Below, piece by piece: positions 9,869 to 17,758 of a stretch of DNA of 64,000 nucleotides. The position numbers and the translations under genes were made by a program. Positions within the stretch are counted from its first letter, which is position 1; each line of letters starts with the position of its first letter. Source of the DNA: Pseudomonadota bacterium (lineage in GTDB: Bacteria > Desulfobacterota > Desulfobacteria > Desulfobacterales > Desulfolunaceae); contig JAHIRD010000106.1 in assembly GCA_018818835.1 (NCBI GenBank), positions 1 to 64,000 of the forward strand. Direction: 5' to 3'. Below the pieces are notes generated by a model that did not search any database, was not told the DNA's origin, and saw only the letters and a list, made by a program, of their open reading frames with translations.

Positions 9869-11578
9869 GTGAAAAAGTCCGGGCACATCAAAATCCTCAT
9901 TGTGGACGATAACGTATCCACACTGCAATTGCTCAAGCACATGCTAAAAAAAACCGGGTTTGAAATCATCTGTGCATCATCCGGAAATGAAGCGATTGAC
10001 GTGGTCAGTGAAAATGATCTTGCACTTATTCTCCTGGATGTGGTTTTGGATGGGGCATCGGGAATGGACATTGCGGAAATCATTCGGGGCAGCGACGGAA
10101 AAAGTCATATCCCCATTATTTTTATGACCGGCCATGACAAGGACAGTGGCTTTGAATTCAAGGGTTATGAAATCGGTGCGGTGGATTTTATCTATAAGCC
10201 CATTAATCCTGTGGTGCTTCACAGTAAAGTCGGTGTATTTGCAGAACTCTACCTGAGGGAAAAAAAGCTGGTTGAGAGCAACCTTGAACTTGAAACAACT
10301 CTGTCATCCTTGCGCAAGGAAATCGGGATGCGGAAAAAAGTTCATCAGGCCCTGAAACGATCCGAAGAACAATACCGGACCCTGTACGAAACGAGTCAGG
10401 ATATGGAGTCCCAGCTTCGTCAGGCCCAGAAAATGGAAGCCGTGGGAACCCTTGCCGGGGGAATTGCCCATGATTTCAACAATATTTTGGCGGCCATCAT
10501 GGGCTATATTGAACTTTCCCAGTTTGATGTTCCCGAGAGCAATCCGGCCCGTCACAGCCTTGATCAGGTTTTGAAGGCCACCCACCGGGCCAAAAAACTG
10601 GTCAGCCAAATCCTGGCATTCAGTCGACAAAACAACTACGAAAAAAAACCGGTTTATGTTCAATGTATTATCAATGAATGCGTGGAACTTTTGCGCGCCT
10701 CCATCCCAAGTACGGTGGCCATTGAAAAGGATCTCTGTCAGGAACTGAAAGCTGTGAAAGCGGACTCGACCCAGATCCATCAGGTGATCATGAATTTATG
10801 CACCAATGCCTACCATGCCATGGATGGCGGAGAAGGACGTATTGATATCACACTGTCACCCTACGGGATGCGTGATGAGGACTGTTTGTCCATGCTGGGC
10901 CTGAGCCAGGGTGAATATATGAGGCTTGTGATCGGAGATACAGGCTGCGGGATGGACGAGAAAATCCTATCCAAGATTTTTGAGCCTTACTTTACAACCA
11001 AGGCCAAGGGCCAGGGAACAGGCATGGGGCTGTCTGTGGTTCATGGAATCATTAAATCCCATGGGGGCCGTATTGATGTGACCAGCGAACCGGGAAAGGG
11101 TAGTCGGTTTACCCTGTATCTTCCGGTTATAGATATGAGTGCCAGTGACCATACAGACGTTCCGGCTCTGCTGCCCCTGGGCAGAGAGCGTATTCTATTT
11201 GTGGATGATGAGGAAACCCTGGTGGATCTGGGTGTTAAAATACTTGAACGCCTGGGCTATGAAGTCGTTTCGGAAACCAGCAGCCTGAGGGCTTTTGAGC
11301 GGTTCAAGGATGATCCCCAAGGGTTTGATCTGGTGATTACGGATATGACCATGCCAGATTTGACAGGCATACAGCTGGCCCGAAAAATTAAAATGATATC
11401 TCCCGGTGTTCCTATTATTTTATGCACCGGTTATCACAAGGAAATCAATGTTTCAAAAGTTAAGGACTTCGGTATTGATTTCTTGTTGTTGAAGCCCCTT
11501 AAAATCATGGACCTGGCAACGGTGATACGTGATGCTGTTCAGCTGGAGGAGGAGATCAGGGTATTCAAGCATGCATGA
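9869..11578 (+). CDS. Hybrid histidine kinase with receiver domains at both ends
   Basis: A soluble 569-aa signalling protein without membrane segments. Domain order: a receiver domain (about 5-120) with phospho-acceptor D57 in LLDV; a coiled-coil linker (about 130-190); a HisKA dimerisation domain with phospho-accepting H201 in GGIAHDFNN; an HATPase domain with N box NLCTNAYHAM, G1 GDTGCGMD and the GTGMGLSVVHGI lid; and a second receiver domain (about 435-555) with D492 in VITDMTMPD. The start is GTG, supported by AAAGGAG eight bases upstream. It lacks a PAS or membrane sensor, so input probably comes through the N-terminal receiver. The stop overlaps the start of the next gene, which suggests joint translation. 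Confidence 0.92.
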   Translation: MKKSGHIKILIVDDNVSTLQLLKHMLKKTGFEIICASSGNEAIDVVSENDLALILLDVVLDGASGMDIAEIIRGSDGKSHIPIIFMTGHDKDSGFEFKGYEIGAVDFIYKPINPVVLHSKVGVFAELYLREKKLVESNLELETTLSSLRKEIGMRKKVHQALKRSEEQYRTLYETSQDMESQLRQAQKMEAVGTLAGGIAHDFNNILAAIMGYIELSQFDVPESNPARHSLDQVLKATHRAKKLVSQILAFSRQNNYEKKPVYVQCIINECVELLRASIPSTVAIEKDLCQELKAVKADSTQIHQVIMNLCTNAYHAMDGGEGRIDITLSPYGMRDEDCLSMLGLSQGEYMRLVIGDTGCGMDEKILSKIFEPYFTTKAKGQGTGMGLSVVHGIIKSHGGRIDVTSEPGKGSRFTLYLPVIDMSASDHTDVPALLPLGRERILFVDDEETLVDLGVKILERLGYEVVSETSSLRAFERFKDDPQGFDLVITDMTMPDLTGIQLARKIKMISPGVPIILCTGYHKEINVSKVKDFGIDFLLLKPLKIMDLATVIRDAVQLEEEIRVFKHA

Positions 11579-12095
11579 GAGATCAACTATCAAAGCCGTT
11601 CTTTTAAGTGTTTATGTCTTATTCGGGCAGGTTTCTGTCCTTCATGGGCAGGGCACAGACTTTCGAGAGGTGACATGGGGAATGAGCCGTCTTGAAGTGA
11701 TGGCCCATGAGGAATCGGGACCGGTGTCCCTTGACGCCCCTTTTATCTATTATACATCCCGAGTGGCGGGCCAGGAACATCACCTTCTCTATGGATTCAT
11801 TGAAGACAAACTTGTGAACGCCGTTTACATCATCGTAACCCAATCACCCCGAGAATATCGTTATTTTAAAAAGAATATCGAGTCCAAATATGGTCGGCCG
11901 AAAAAATCATATGATGGGGGAAGCCAAAATTACCTCTTTTTCTGGGAAAATGAGCGGACAGAGATAACTATAAGACCTGGAAATATAAGGGAATGTCGCA
12001 TTGAATACATGGCTAAAAAGTTCAAGCCCCTAAGGGCGAATAAGGAAAAAGAAAGAAAACAAAGACTCTCAGATGAGCTCAGTAGAGCCTATTAA
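11571..12095 (+). CDS. Small exported protein of unknown function
   Basis: A 174-aa product with an N-terminal hydrophobic signal peptide ending near VLHGQG, so it is likely periplasmic. The mature part begins FREVTWGMSRLEV, which resembles the W-G-x-S-x-x-E-V opening found in several small periplasmic proteins, and it ends in a strongly basic, charged tail. No enzyme motif is visible. The ATG at 11571 overlaps the kinase stop codon by a few bases and gives a proper signal peptide; a longer in-frame start at 11529 lies inside the kinase gene and is less likely. Tight coupling to the kinase suggests a related sensory or envelope role, but that is inference. Confidence 0.7.
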   Translation: MHERSTIKAVLLSVYVLFGQVSVLHGQGTDFREVTWGMSRLEVMAHEESGPVSLDAPFIYYTSRVAGQEHHLLYGFIEDKLVNAVYIIVTQSPREYRYFKKNIESKYGRPKKSYDGGSQNYLFFWENERTEITIRPGNIRECRIEYMAKKFKPLRANKEKERKQRLSDELSRAY

Positions 12096-12715: not shown

Positions 12716-12784
12716 TACGAACTTTAATTCGATCGTTTAAAGCTTACAGGATCGTACAGGATGTATCATACAGGAGGTCAAATC

Positions 12785-14101
12785 ATGAACAGAAGGCTTG
12801 CTACTCTGATAATATTCATGCTTGGCATGGCTTTTTCAAGCAGTGTCCAAGCTCTTGAGTTGAATGAAACGGGCAAGGTCGATATTCACGGCTTTATCAC
12901 TCAAGGCTATCTTTTTTCCGACGACAATAATTTTATGGCTGATACCGAAGGGAACGGATCGACCCAGTTCAATGAGATCGGTATCAACTTTTCCTCAGAC
13001 GTCAGTGAACGTCTTCGAATGGGTGTCCAGTTTATTGCAAGGGACCTCGGGAAAATGGGGAACCAGGCTGTTACGATTGACTGGGCTGTTGCGGATTACA
13101 GCTTTTATGACTGGTTGAATCTGAGGGCCGGAAAGATCAAATTTCCCCATGGCCTCTACAATACAGCACGTGATGTTGACATGCTGAGAACCTTTATCTT
13201 TTTGCCCCAGAGCGTTTACACCGAAGGATGGCGAGATTCCTTGAATGCAGGAAGCGGAGCAGGATTTTACGGATATGTTCCCGTGGGAATCGTCGGGAGT
13301 CTTACCTATATAGCGTTTGGTGGAAATGCAGGTATGAAAGATGACGGGGGTGAAGCACGACTCCTTGAAGACCAGGTTCCCAAAGAACTTCAGCTGAATG
13401 TTCTTGCCATGGATACGAAACGGACATGGGGTTCTCAGTTGATCTTGGATTCAGCGTTCAGCATTGACGGCCTGAAACTTCTTGGCGGGTACTGGGGGCA
13501 TGAGTTTACTGCGGACTGCAGTGTGATCAATGGCACAGGCTCACCCTTGTTTGATGCGACAAACACACTGGTCGGGTCTAAAATGGACACGGAAACCAGG
13601 GTTTTCGACATTAAGATCCGTTCAACCACAGCAGCTCTTGAATATTCCTGGGGCAATTTGATTTTCGCCACAGAGTATATGCAAAATAATTACCGATTGA
13701 AACTTCCCCTATCCACACGTGTTCTTCCATCGGGTATGATAAACAAGGATTTTGATGCCTTAGCATACTATGGAAGCTTGACCTACCGATTTACCGATTG
13801 GTTCGAATTGGGTGCTTATTATTCCGAATACTTTGCGAACAAGGATGACAAAGATGGTGCAGAATCTGTCGCGGAAGGAACGGTCAAGGCGGGTCAGGAA
13901 CATGTAAAATGGCTCAAAGATTCCTGCGTAGCATTGCGGTTTGACCTTACGCCTAACTGGATACTGAAACTTGAAACCCATTATGTTGACGGTGCTGCCT
14001 TGATGTACAGTGATGACGGGAATATAGCGGCCGACGGAGTGACAACCACGTACGAACGTTACTGGATGCTGTATGGAGCAAAGCTCTCCTACAGCTTCTA
14101 A
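12785..14101 (+). CDS. Outer-membrane porin
   Basis: A 438-aa beta-barrel protein with a cleavable signal peptide ending SSSVQA. The mature part begins with a short LNETGKVDIHGFITQGY strand, shows alternating hydrophobic strands throughout, and ends in the terminal phenylalanine (KLSYSF) expected for outer-membrane insertion. The ATG at 12785 follows CAGGAGGTC at good spacing; an in-frame ATG 24 bp earlier is rejected for lack of a binding site. It is paired with the upstream PstS-like protein and followed by a terminator. Substrate unknown. Confidence 0.85.
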   Translation: MNRRLATLIIFMLGMAFSSSVQALELNETGKVDIHGFITQGYLFSDDNNFMADTEGNGSTQFNEIGINFSSDVSERLRMGVQFIARDLGKMGNQAVTIDWAVADYSFYDWLNLRAGKIKFPHGLYNTARDVDMLRTFIFLPQSVYTEGWRDSLNAGSGAGFYGYVPVGIVGSLTYIAFGGNAGMKDDGGEARLLEDQVPKELQLNVLAMDTKRTWGSQLILDSAFSIDGLKLLGGYWGHEFTADCSVINGTGSPLFDATNTLVGSKMDTETRVFDIKIRSTTAALEYSWGNLIFATEYMQNNYRLKLPLSTRVLPSGMINKDFDALAYYGSLTYRFTDWFELGAYYSEYFANKDDKDGAESVAEGTVKAGQEHVKWLKDSCVALRFDLTPNWILKLETHYVDGAALMYSDDGNIAADGVTTTYERYWMLYGAKLSYSF

Positions 14102-15529: not shown

Positions 15530-17704
15530 ATGATGAACCGAATATTATCAGCCATAAGCATCATGTGCATGGCGTCTCTTGTGACGGCCTATTCTGCCTT
15601 GTGCGGGCCCGGCAAGATAGAGGATATGAAGCACAAGGACGGCAAGCTGGGGGCCTATCATGCATTGCTCATCGGGATTGATGACTATCAGGATTCAACG
15701 ATACCCGGCGTGAAATCAGCATCAAAGGCTGCCAATGAACTGGCCGGGGTCCTGAAGCAGAATTATGGATTTGACACGGACCTTCTGACCAATAAAAAAG
15801 CCACAGGCGAAAACATTGTCAAAGCCATTCAGGTGCTTTCTCAGAAAGTGGGTATTGATGATACGGTCATCATTTATTTTTCCGGGCGGGGAGACGTAGA
15901 CTCCTCAGGGAAAAAGGGCTATTGGTATCCTTATGATGCAAAGGCCGGAGCTGTTGAAAGCTATGTGGACAATGAACGAGTTCAGGGTTTTATTCGGGAT
16001 ATGAAAGCCAACGATATTCTAGTTATCTCGGATTCCACCTATGCCGATACCTTTTTTGGTTCGGCCCACAAGCTTCCGGAAGAATTCAGCGATGCATATT
16101 ACCTGAATCTTTATAACAAACAGAGCCGCTGGGGTTTGACTTCAGGAACAGATGGTTCAAAGGAAAACGGTATCAGTATCTTTACTGATAAGATCATTCA
16201 GGCTTTGAAGGGAAATGAAAAACCCCATTTTTCCCTTCAGGAGTTGTATGAAAAAATCAAGCCGGATATCCGTAAGTCCAGCATCCGTCCACCCCGATGC
16301 CGATCTTTGAGAAATACGGGGGATCAGGGTGGTGAGCCCGTGTTTGTTCTCTTGGCCTCAGCTCTTGAAAAAATAGCCGCTGCCAAAGGATCCGATGAGG
16401 ATAAAAACAGTAAAAACAAAGCCAAATCAGGAGATAAAACAGGGGCCAAGGATAAAATCATTGGTGATAGTACCTTGAGCGTTGCTGTCAATATTTCTGA
16501 TGCTGAGGTGGCCATGGACGGTGTTCCCCTGGGAAAAGGGGCTGTGAATAAAATGGCCGTATCCCCTGGAATTCATCTGATTGAAGTCACACGGGAAGGC
16601 TATGTTCCCTTCAAGAAAAATGTGATCGTGAAACGGGGTGCTCTGGCGTCTCTCAATGCAGATCTTGCAAAGGTTGAGGTCAAATCCACCAAGGGGAATT
16701 TGCAGGTGACAGTGGTGCCTGAAACTGCCGATATAAAGTTTGTTGGTCAAAACATAGCTTACACACCGGGGATGCTGATGGAAAAGGGGACGTATACCCT
16801 TGAGATTTCAGCGCCTTTTTATGATAAGCAAAGCAAGGATATTGTTGTCAAGGCCCTTGAGAATAATATGTATTCCGTGAACCTCGATCCTGTCAAATCC
16901 GTTCACCATAAGACTCTGGGTAATTTTGTGTTGATCAATCCGGGTACGTTTACCATGGGCAGTCCGGACAGTGAATCAGCCATGCGGAACAGCAATGAGA
17001 AACAACATAAGGTCACACTGTCCCGTCGGATTTATATGCAGGAAAAAGAAATGACCCTGGGTCAATGGCGATGGTTTATCAAATCCGCAAACTACAAGAC
17101 TGAGGCGGAAGCCGGTGAGGGTGCCCATATTCTGGTGGATTACAACTGGGAAAAGGATAGTGAATACAATTGGGGAATTCCCGGATTCAATCAGAATGAC
17201 AAGCATCCGGTTGTCTGTGTGTCCTGGAATGATACCCAGGCCTTTGTCAAATGGGTGAACAAGAACAGCAAAGAATCGATTACCTTCAGACTCCCCACGG
17301 AAGCTGAATGGGAATATGCCTGTCGGGCCGGTTCCAAGGACCGTTTTGCCTTTGGTCATTGTCTGCTCCGTGAACAGGCTAATTTTGAGGGAAATGCAAA
17401 ATGGGAAGACTGTCCTGTGGGTGTAAGTAGTTCCGGTACAGGTGAGGTCGGCAAGTTCCAACCCAATGCCTGGGGCCTTTATGATATGCACGGCAATGTC
17501 ATGGAGTGGTGCCAGGACTGGCTGGGGAATTATCAGGACGGGGATGTTACCGACCCCACCGGCCCCCAGTCCGGAACCGCCAAGGTGGTCCGCGGAGGCG
17601 CCTGGACCAGCTATGCCTATAATTCAAGGTCTGCTAAACGGTACAGCCGAAGCCCCAATGAAAGTTACAGTGATATGGGTTTCCGCCTGGTGCTTGAGCC
17701 CTGA
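15530..17704 (+). CDS. Pseudo-caspase / PEGA / FGE-like fusion protein
   Basis: A 724-aa exported fusion protein. After an N-terminal signal segment, residues about 40-290 form a caspase-like (peptidase C14) domain opening with ALLIGIDDY. The catalytic histidine of the usual FSGHG is R120 (FSGRGD) and the catalytic cysteine of the usual DSCYSG is T170 (DSTYAD), so it should be proteolytically dead. A Lys-rich linker precedes a PEGA domain (about 313-380) and a second PEGA-like domain (about 388-455). Residues 462-724 are a formylglycine-generating-enzyme/sulfatase-modifying fold: FRLPTEAEWEYACRAG, HGNVMEWCQDW, VVRGGAW, GFRLV. The C-terminal CRxAxR catalytic cysteine of true FGE is serine here (NSRSAKR), so this part is likely a ligand-binding fold. 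The partner gene is the beta-roll protein upstream; a terminator follows. Function unknown. Confidence 0.85.
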   Translation: MMNRILSAISIMCMASLVTAYSALCGPGKIEDMKHKDGKLGAYHALLIGIDDYQDSTIPGVKSASKAANELAGVLKQNYGFDTDLLTNKKATGENIVKAIQVLSQKVGIDDTVIIYFSGRGDVDSSGKKGYWYPYDAKAGAVESYVDNERVQGFIRDMKANDILVISDSTYADTFFGSAHKLPEEFSDAYYLNLYNKQSRWGLTSGTDGSKENGISIFTDKIIQALKGNEKPHFSLQELYEKIKPDIRKSSIRPPRCRSLRNTGDQGGEPVFVLLASALEKIAAAKGSDEDKNSKNKAKSGDKTGAKDKIIGDSTLSVAVNISDAEVAMDGVPLGKGAVNKMAVSPGIHLIEVTREGYVPFKKNVIVKRGALASLNADLAKVEVKSTKGNLQVTVVPETADIKFVGQNIAYTPGMLMEKGTYTLEISAPFYDKQSKDIVVKALENNMYSVNLDPVKSVHHKTLGNFVLINPGTFTMGSPDSESAMRNSNEKQHKVTLSRRIYMQEKEMTLGQWRWFIKSANYKTEAEAGEGAHILVDYNWEKDSEYNWGIPGFNQNDKHPVVCVSWNDTQAFVKWVNKNSKESITFRLPTEAEWEYACRAGSKDRFAFGHCLLREQANFEGNAKWEDCPVGVSSSGTGEVGKFQPNAWGLYDMHGNVMEWCQDWLGNYQDGDVTDPTGPQSGTAKVVRGGAWTSYAYNSRSAKRYSRSPNESYSDMGFRLVLEP

Positions 17705-17727: not shown

Positions 17728-17758
17728 TAAAAAAGCCCCGTTAAGGGGCTTTTTTTTT
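17728..17758 (+). terminator. Terminator after the caspase-like fusion gene
   Basis: The stem AAAAAGCCCC-GTTA-(A)GGGGCTTTTT runs straight into a nine-base T tract, 24 bp past the stop. The stem is flanked by A and T runs, so it may also work on the minus strand for the chemoreceptor gene. Confidence 0.88.

Follow-up and report, generated by a model that had tools for sequence, protein, structure and literature searches.

The window, that is, the whole 64,000-nt stretch analysed, contained a run of four genes on one strand, designated g1 to g4 and separated by intergenic gaps of 45, 225, and 39 bases (Table 1). The earlier note had described the product of g4, the last of the four, and had missed this setting, in which the gene order g1-g2-g3-g4 proved to be conserved. 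The half-PstS-like protein encoded by g1 matched its family profile in all 12 complete operons described below, and a search for its PDB relatives gave no clear match. The barrel predicted for g2 had no PDB relatives up to E 1; the gene was conserved throughout the operon loci, being split over two frames in L061. The window copy of g3 had no Pfam or NCBIfam match, and with its AlphaFold2 model (mean pLDDT 65.9) Foldseek returned nothing under E 0.001. The hybrid kinase preceding the operon in the window was missing from that place in L067-L069. A hairpin with A and T tracts followed g4, the terminator scan of the region giving 9 terminator-like sites versus 7.2 in shuffles, and the promoter scan of the region performed no better than shuffles.

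Table 1. Genes, domains and sites of the g1-g4 region (positions in the window)
Feature	Position	Strand	Evidence or remark
Hybrid histidine kinase/response regulator and 188-aa protein, upstream of operon	9869..12095	+	Same place in L057-L061
g1, half-PstS-like protein (PBP_like_2), 146 aa	12275..12715	+	PF12849 30.4 bits, cut-off 27; signal peptide by eye
g2, porin-like outer-membrane barrel, 446 aa, C-terminal YSF	12761..14101	+	PF07396 17.4 bits, under cut-off 20.9
g3, alpha/beta domain, coiled coil, C-terminal beta-roll head, 387 aa	14327..15490	+	Profile match to UspA1 head, E 8.7e-20
g4, pseudo-caspase, PEGA x2, FGE-like protein, 724 aa	15530..17704	+	ORF, Pfam, AlphaFold2, Foldseek
g4 caspase (Peptidase_C14) domain, residues 44-248	15659..16273	+	PF00656 48.7 bits
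g4 R120 codon, at catalytic His position	15887..15889	+	Alignment to intact caspases
g4 T170 codon, at catalytic Cys position	16037..16039	+	Alignment to intact caspases
g4 FGE-like domain, residues 465-721	16922..17692	+	PF03781 177.3 bits; catalytic Cys absent (alignment to human FGE)
g4 residues 687-721, counterpart of a relative's hypermutated segment	17588..17692	+	Alignment; conserved in operon
Terminator-like hairpin with A and T tracts, after g4	17729..17755	. (listed on -)	Terminator scan

The protein predicted for g4 began with a signal peptide, identified by eye without a prediction tool, and no lipobox was seen by eye. Two PEGA stretches were located by Pfam between the caspase and FGE-like domains. 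The AlphaFold2 model, based on 9 sequences, had a mean pLDDT of 70.9 and a pTM of 0.47, with residues 41-170 mostly at 85-95, residues 171-220 only at 59-73, and part of the FGE domain below 50. Residues 39-275 superposed on MALT1 (Z 21.4, rmsd 2.4) and on Arabidopsis metacaspase 4 (Z 21.1, rmsd 2.5), while the top ranks in Foldseek were taken by human FGE and PvdO; since the VIA-align rows covered the caspase part only, the FGE match was based on Foldseek and sequence. The architecture read earlier from the letters, a caspase fold continuing through two PEGA-like domains into an FGE/SUMF1 fold, was thus confirmed, and the proposed comparison of a predicted structure with metacaspases and FGE matched both folds, the FGE part of the model being partly weak.

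Alignments with intact caspases placed R120 at the position of the catalytic His and T170 at that of the catalytic Cys, in agreement with the earlier note, with YFSGRGD and ISDSTYADT corresponding to YYAGHGD and ISDSCYSGT; the case that would have spoken against this assignment, an adjacent His or Cys filling the active site in their stead, was not found in these alignments. The catalytic His and Cys were both absent from all 14 g4 proteins found in the operon, which spanned six family codes, so that R120 and T170 do not represent a chance occurrence. The replacing pairs were R/T (window), Q/A, S/A (four proteins), A/V, Y/S, and A/P (two each), S/S, and K/gap, that is, eight different pairs, and in L069 the Cys loop was deleted. 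The search for orthologues suggested in the note thus revealed a conserved loss, but the Arg/Thr pair expected to accompany it occurred in the window only, and a conserved Arg/Thr signature was rejected. The FGE-like domain likewise had Ala at the column of C341 of human FGE and a gap at the position of C336 (residue numbers from PDB entry titles), and these cysteines were also absent, as read by eye, from the C-termini of the other operon g4 proteins, that of L062 being cut by the contig end.

In the nearest non-operon group, His and Cys were kept in all 18 rows examined (13 genomes or records). These rows, fragments included, were drawn from the strongest part of a survey in which 51 of 389 genomes reached E 1e-45 or better, supplemented with further records; G526, G622, G753, G714, and G467 contributed two each. 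No g1-g3 genes were seen at their loci, several of which were short contigs. Seven further caspases were detected in the genome of the window, and all of them possessed His and Cys. A separate caspase-fold group of the order, consisting of L030 (G021), L033 (G043), and L034 (G031), kept the His but carried Phe or Pro in place of the Cys, forming a clade with support of 100/100.

Profiles derived from the initial loci recovered the complete g1-g2-g3-g4 order at 12 loci (window, L057-L061, L067-L069, and L200-L202); two more g4 loci were cut by contig ends (L062, with g2-g3-g4, and L066, with g3-g4), and L204 ended at g3. The operon was seen in records of Desulfoluna butyratoxydans, D. limicola (complete chromosome), D. 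spongiiphila, and Desulfobotulus alkaliphilus, as well as in a Desulfoluna MAG and a MAG labelled Desulforapulum autotrophicum; the family code of the window's genome was shared by the three named Desulfoluna species and both MAGs. An assembly artefact was rejected because the same operon occurred in isolates and a complete chromosome. In the survey of genomes of the taxonomic order, g3 was detected at E 1e-40 or better in 19 of 291 genomes, with g4 beside it in 14, a contig edge in one, and no g4 in four. In the draw across the phylum, the g3 profile was matched at E 1e-15 in 14 of 395 genomes, nearly at full length only in the window's genome and G026. Relatives of g1-g3 were also found with other partners, namely a HEAT-repeat protein (window's genome, C149), a LamG-like protein (G020), and START-domain proteins (C289). 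L206:6058-12087 carried g1, g2, a gene for a 190-aa protein, g3, and, in the place of g4, a gene for a 787-aa LamG/3-keto-disaccharide-hydrolase-like protein. Two g3 paralogues of the window's genome were located at L198:289-5088 and L197:7782-8912, one preceded by genes for a g2-like barrel and a HEAT-repeat protein, the other adjacent to a START-domain protein.

Varied modules followed the caspase domain in the 11 intact relatives scanned, namely FGE in five, Lcl_C in five, and DctP in one, the last being encoded at L241:7058-9400, where an intact-dyad caspase was fused to a DctP solute-binding domain. At L245 of G526 (L245:6181-13424), two tandem caspase-PEGA-FGE genes with intact dyads, one of them frame-broken within the FGE part, were accompanied by a small ORF and a reverse transcriptase gene followed by a template repeat. 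The template was located by reading the sequence and then aligned; the 3' ends of the two genes showed 18 and 17 differences from it, 15 and 14 of them, respectively, at template adenines. Mismatches falling mostly at template adenines are the mark of a diversity-generating retroelement, with the two genes as its targets; the small ORF presumably resembles Avd. Similarly, a repeat near a reverse transcriptase gene in G467 differed from the gene end of L063, which lies in another genome, at 24 positions, 17 of them with A in the repeat. In G622 only a second target-like copy was found, with no template; its contig C1 gave more than 20 reverse-transcriptase matches, located in frames of some 446 aa and nearly equal in score, which are perhaps group II introns.

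The counterpart in g4 of the hypermutated segment, residues 687-721, showed higher conservation than the remaining FGE domain in six of six operon pairs, which share members. Of the two intact pairs that were comparable, one had the matching segment less conserved and the other had it more conserved. No template copy of the g4 3' end was found in its genome (97.96% complete, with four reverse-transcriptase matches), the only matches besides the gene itself being of 59 and 58 bases and located upstream of the segment. With no template copy and a conserved segment, the window g4 as a retroelement target was not supported.

The dead caspase domain had dN/dS values of 0.07-0.24 in seven of eight operon pairs (Nei-Gojobori), the eighth being saturated; the values are rough for five of the seven, with dS above 1.5, and the two pairs with dS below 1 gave 0.10 and 0.24. 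Judged from these substitution patterns, the domain is under purifying selection. Recent decay, the other case that the earlier note had set against its reading, together with orthologues having intact pairs, was rejected, since the loss spanned six family codes, purifying selection was present, and the intact relatives examined lay outside the operon. In the intact group, 61 columns were conserved in at least 90% of rows; at least 80% of the operon rows kept 18 of these columns, while 24 were intermediate and 19 were nearly lost. Lost columns made up 14 of the 21 at residues 117-120 or 162-186, around the catalytic positions, versus 5 of the 40 elsewhere (Fisher p 2.8e-5, for a region picked after the list was known and columns that are non-independent). 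The FGE domain was the better conserved of the two in five of the eight operon pairs, as in the pair formed by the window and L057 (FGE 77% versus caspase 55%), and the caspase domain in three, all within Desulfoluna. In intact caspase-FGE pairs the caspase domain was better conserved (L063-L242, the two L245 genes, and L063-L244), with L063-L245b as the exception (caspase 71.0% versus FGE 73.1%).

A caspase tree of 69 rows, leaving out L087 (a second entry of the L200 gene), L002 (which did not match the profile), and one fragment of L232, gave one dyad change for the operon rows, which was found in 76% of bootstraps with a weak joint support of 79/38, and placed operon and intact rows within a 32-row clade (support 100/99). 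Several operon caspase domains had long branches (1.4-1.9). When the active-site columns were removed, the best tree had two changes and one change was found in 2% of bootstraps, the well-supported branches being still compatible with one. The FGE domains of all 14 operon g4 proteins formed one clade (100/98; 100% of bootstraps), to which the nearest row, with modest support, was L042, a caspase-free FGE protein of the same genome (84/83) and not a caspase fusion, followed by the FGE domains of G038 and G044. Given this single FGE clade, one origin of g4 with one old loss of the dyad would be the simplest history, the caspase tree alone allowing one or two losses.

Because the fold was kept and the loss was common to all 14 orthologues, a role in binding or as a scaffold is a better reading of g4 than an enzyme. 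This part of the earlier proposal, a pseudo-protease that keeps its fold, stood, while conservation of the R/T pair did not. Taken together, the lack of catalytic residues in both enzyme folds and the placement beside a porin-like protein and a protein with a UspA1-like head point to a non-enzymatic function, and we favour, with slightly less than even confidence, an exported double pseudo-enzyme that acts as the envelope docking or binding subunit of a four-gene porin-operon module. The protein would be made within an envelope module comprising the porin-like g2, the half-PstS-like g1, and g3 with its trimeric-adhesin-like head. Its FGE-like domain, lacking the catalytic cysteines, would provide the main binding face, with a single fixed partner or ligand; the PEGA domains would serve as spacers, and the dead caspase would form a second, inert docking domain unable to cut. 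In the T9SS ring, PorK, with an FGE-like fold without cysteines, is described as a docking hub (PMC12421860); g4 would probably form a comparable assembly with g2 or g3 at the periplasmic face of the outer membrane. It may have descended from active caspases with varied C-terminal modules, with proteolysis lost when, or after, the gene joined the porin operon. Export, location, complex formation, partner, and order of events are what we infer. Counting against this reading are the sub-cut-off score of the sole family match of g2, the shift of constraint to the FGE domain in only five of eight operon pairs, the occurrence of g1-g3 relatives with partners other than g4, the four of 19 g3-bearing genomes that have no g4 next to g3, the disagreement between caspase trees on one or two dyad losses, and the nearest FGE row not being a caspase fusion. 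A more specific history, which we hold to be rather doubtful, is that a retroelement-diversified caspase sensor was domesticated, starting from exported active caspases of which some had a hypermutable FGE end: the protease would have been lost, the once-variable FGE face fixed on one partner, and the protein locked in the porin operon as a subunit of an outer-membrane complex, with both inactive enzyme folds used for docking.

The varied modules at the same place in intact relatives, including a solute-binding one, would also suit a soluble ligand sensor, in which the ligand of the FGE-like face is a small molecule or glycan entering through the porin and the dead caspase signals to the upstream hybrid histidine kinase. 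The PstS-like nature of g1, the presence of the hybrid kinase/regulator upstream in L057-L061, and the LamG-like protein downstream of g3 in G020 agree with such a role, but the kinase was missing from that place in L067-L069 and the FGE part of the model was too weak for a ligand pocket to be assessed; we consider this sensor doubtful. With its fold kept under selection, the caspase domain might instead be a decoy or inhibitor that blocks the cell's active caspases by binding their substrates or by pairing with them, as c-FLIP does with caspase-8, and the seven intact caspases of the window's genome would be candidate targets. The release of the active-site surroundings, with eight different pairs replacing the dyad, would not be expected of a protein working through its old substrate groove, and a decoy appears quite improbable. 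The same long branches and the deleted Cys loop of L069, together with the absence of a Pfam caspase match at E 0.01 in three of the five operon g4 proteins scanned (L058, L067, and L202), could indicate that the caspase domain is a vestige, a leftover linker beside an FGE domain that does the work. Such a vestige is unlikely in view of dN/dS values well under 1, the 18 positions, among 61 conserved ones, that at least 80% of operon rows retain, and the open frame of the caspase domain in all 14 g4 genes.

Pseudo-orthocaspases (PMC6426788; SyOC, PMC7889975), like g4, keep the p20 caspase fold, have the His-Cys dyad replaced, and are presumed inactive. Those published are mostly from Alphaproteobacteria and Cyanobacteria, with Tyr/Ser as the commonest pair (PMC6426788), whereas g4 carries a signal peptide recognized by eye, is fused to PEGA and FGE domains, and lies in a porin operon of Desulfobacterota-type hosts with a varying pair. 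Peptidase C14 joined to an FGE-sulfatase domain, as in g4, is represented by 33 caspase-FGE sequences in PMC3501461, where one Trichodesmium fusion is listed as dyad-negative and the fusions are discussed as a protease combined with formylglycine modification; g4 differs in lacking both catalytic sites and in belonging to a conserved operon. While g4 shares the fold of the formylglycine-generating enzyme without its catalytic Cys pair, as do PorK/GldK, of which PorK lies in the envelope and is used for docking (PMC12421860), it is not a member of the latter family, scoring 108.8 bits versus the NCBIfam GldK cut-off of 350 and having g1-g3 as neighbours. Retroelement variable proteins with orthocaspase domains are known (PMC7517822), related systems being treated in PMC10907252; the two L245 genes, which come from an intact relative, belong to this kind, whereas for the window g4 no template copy was found in its genome and the matching segment is conserved. 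In the open-licence PubMed Central literature, no paper was found that treats the operon or describes dead caspases of Desulfoluna. Pseudo-orthocaspases as such are known, and the operon-bound branch appears to be new, although single members may be listed in the supplements of PMC6426788. The Pfam caspase domain missed in three of five operon g4 proteins may be one reason why surveys overlooked the branch.

The anaerobes bearing the conserved dead branch are, to our knowledge, not phototrophs, and a hypothesis that ties bacterial dead caspases to photosynthesis has been published. It is set out in PMC6426788. The dead branch and the intact relatives of the same architecture that flank it in the tree form a before/after pair, from which the function of a caspase fold after the loss of cutting could be learned, and g4 may represent a case of a hypermutable binding face turned into a fixed one. 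The operon, apparently uncharacterised, is accessible in cultured Desulfoluna and Desulfobotulus.
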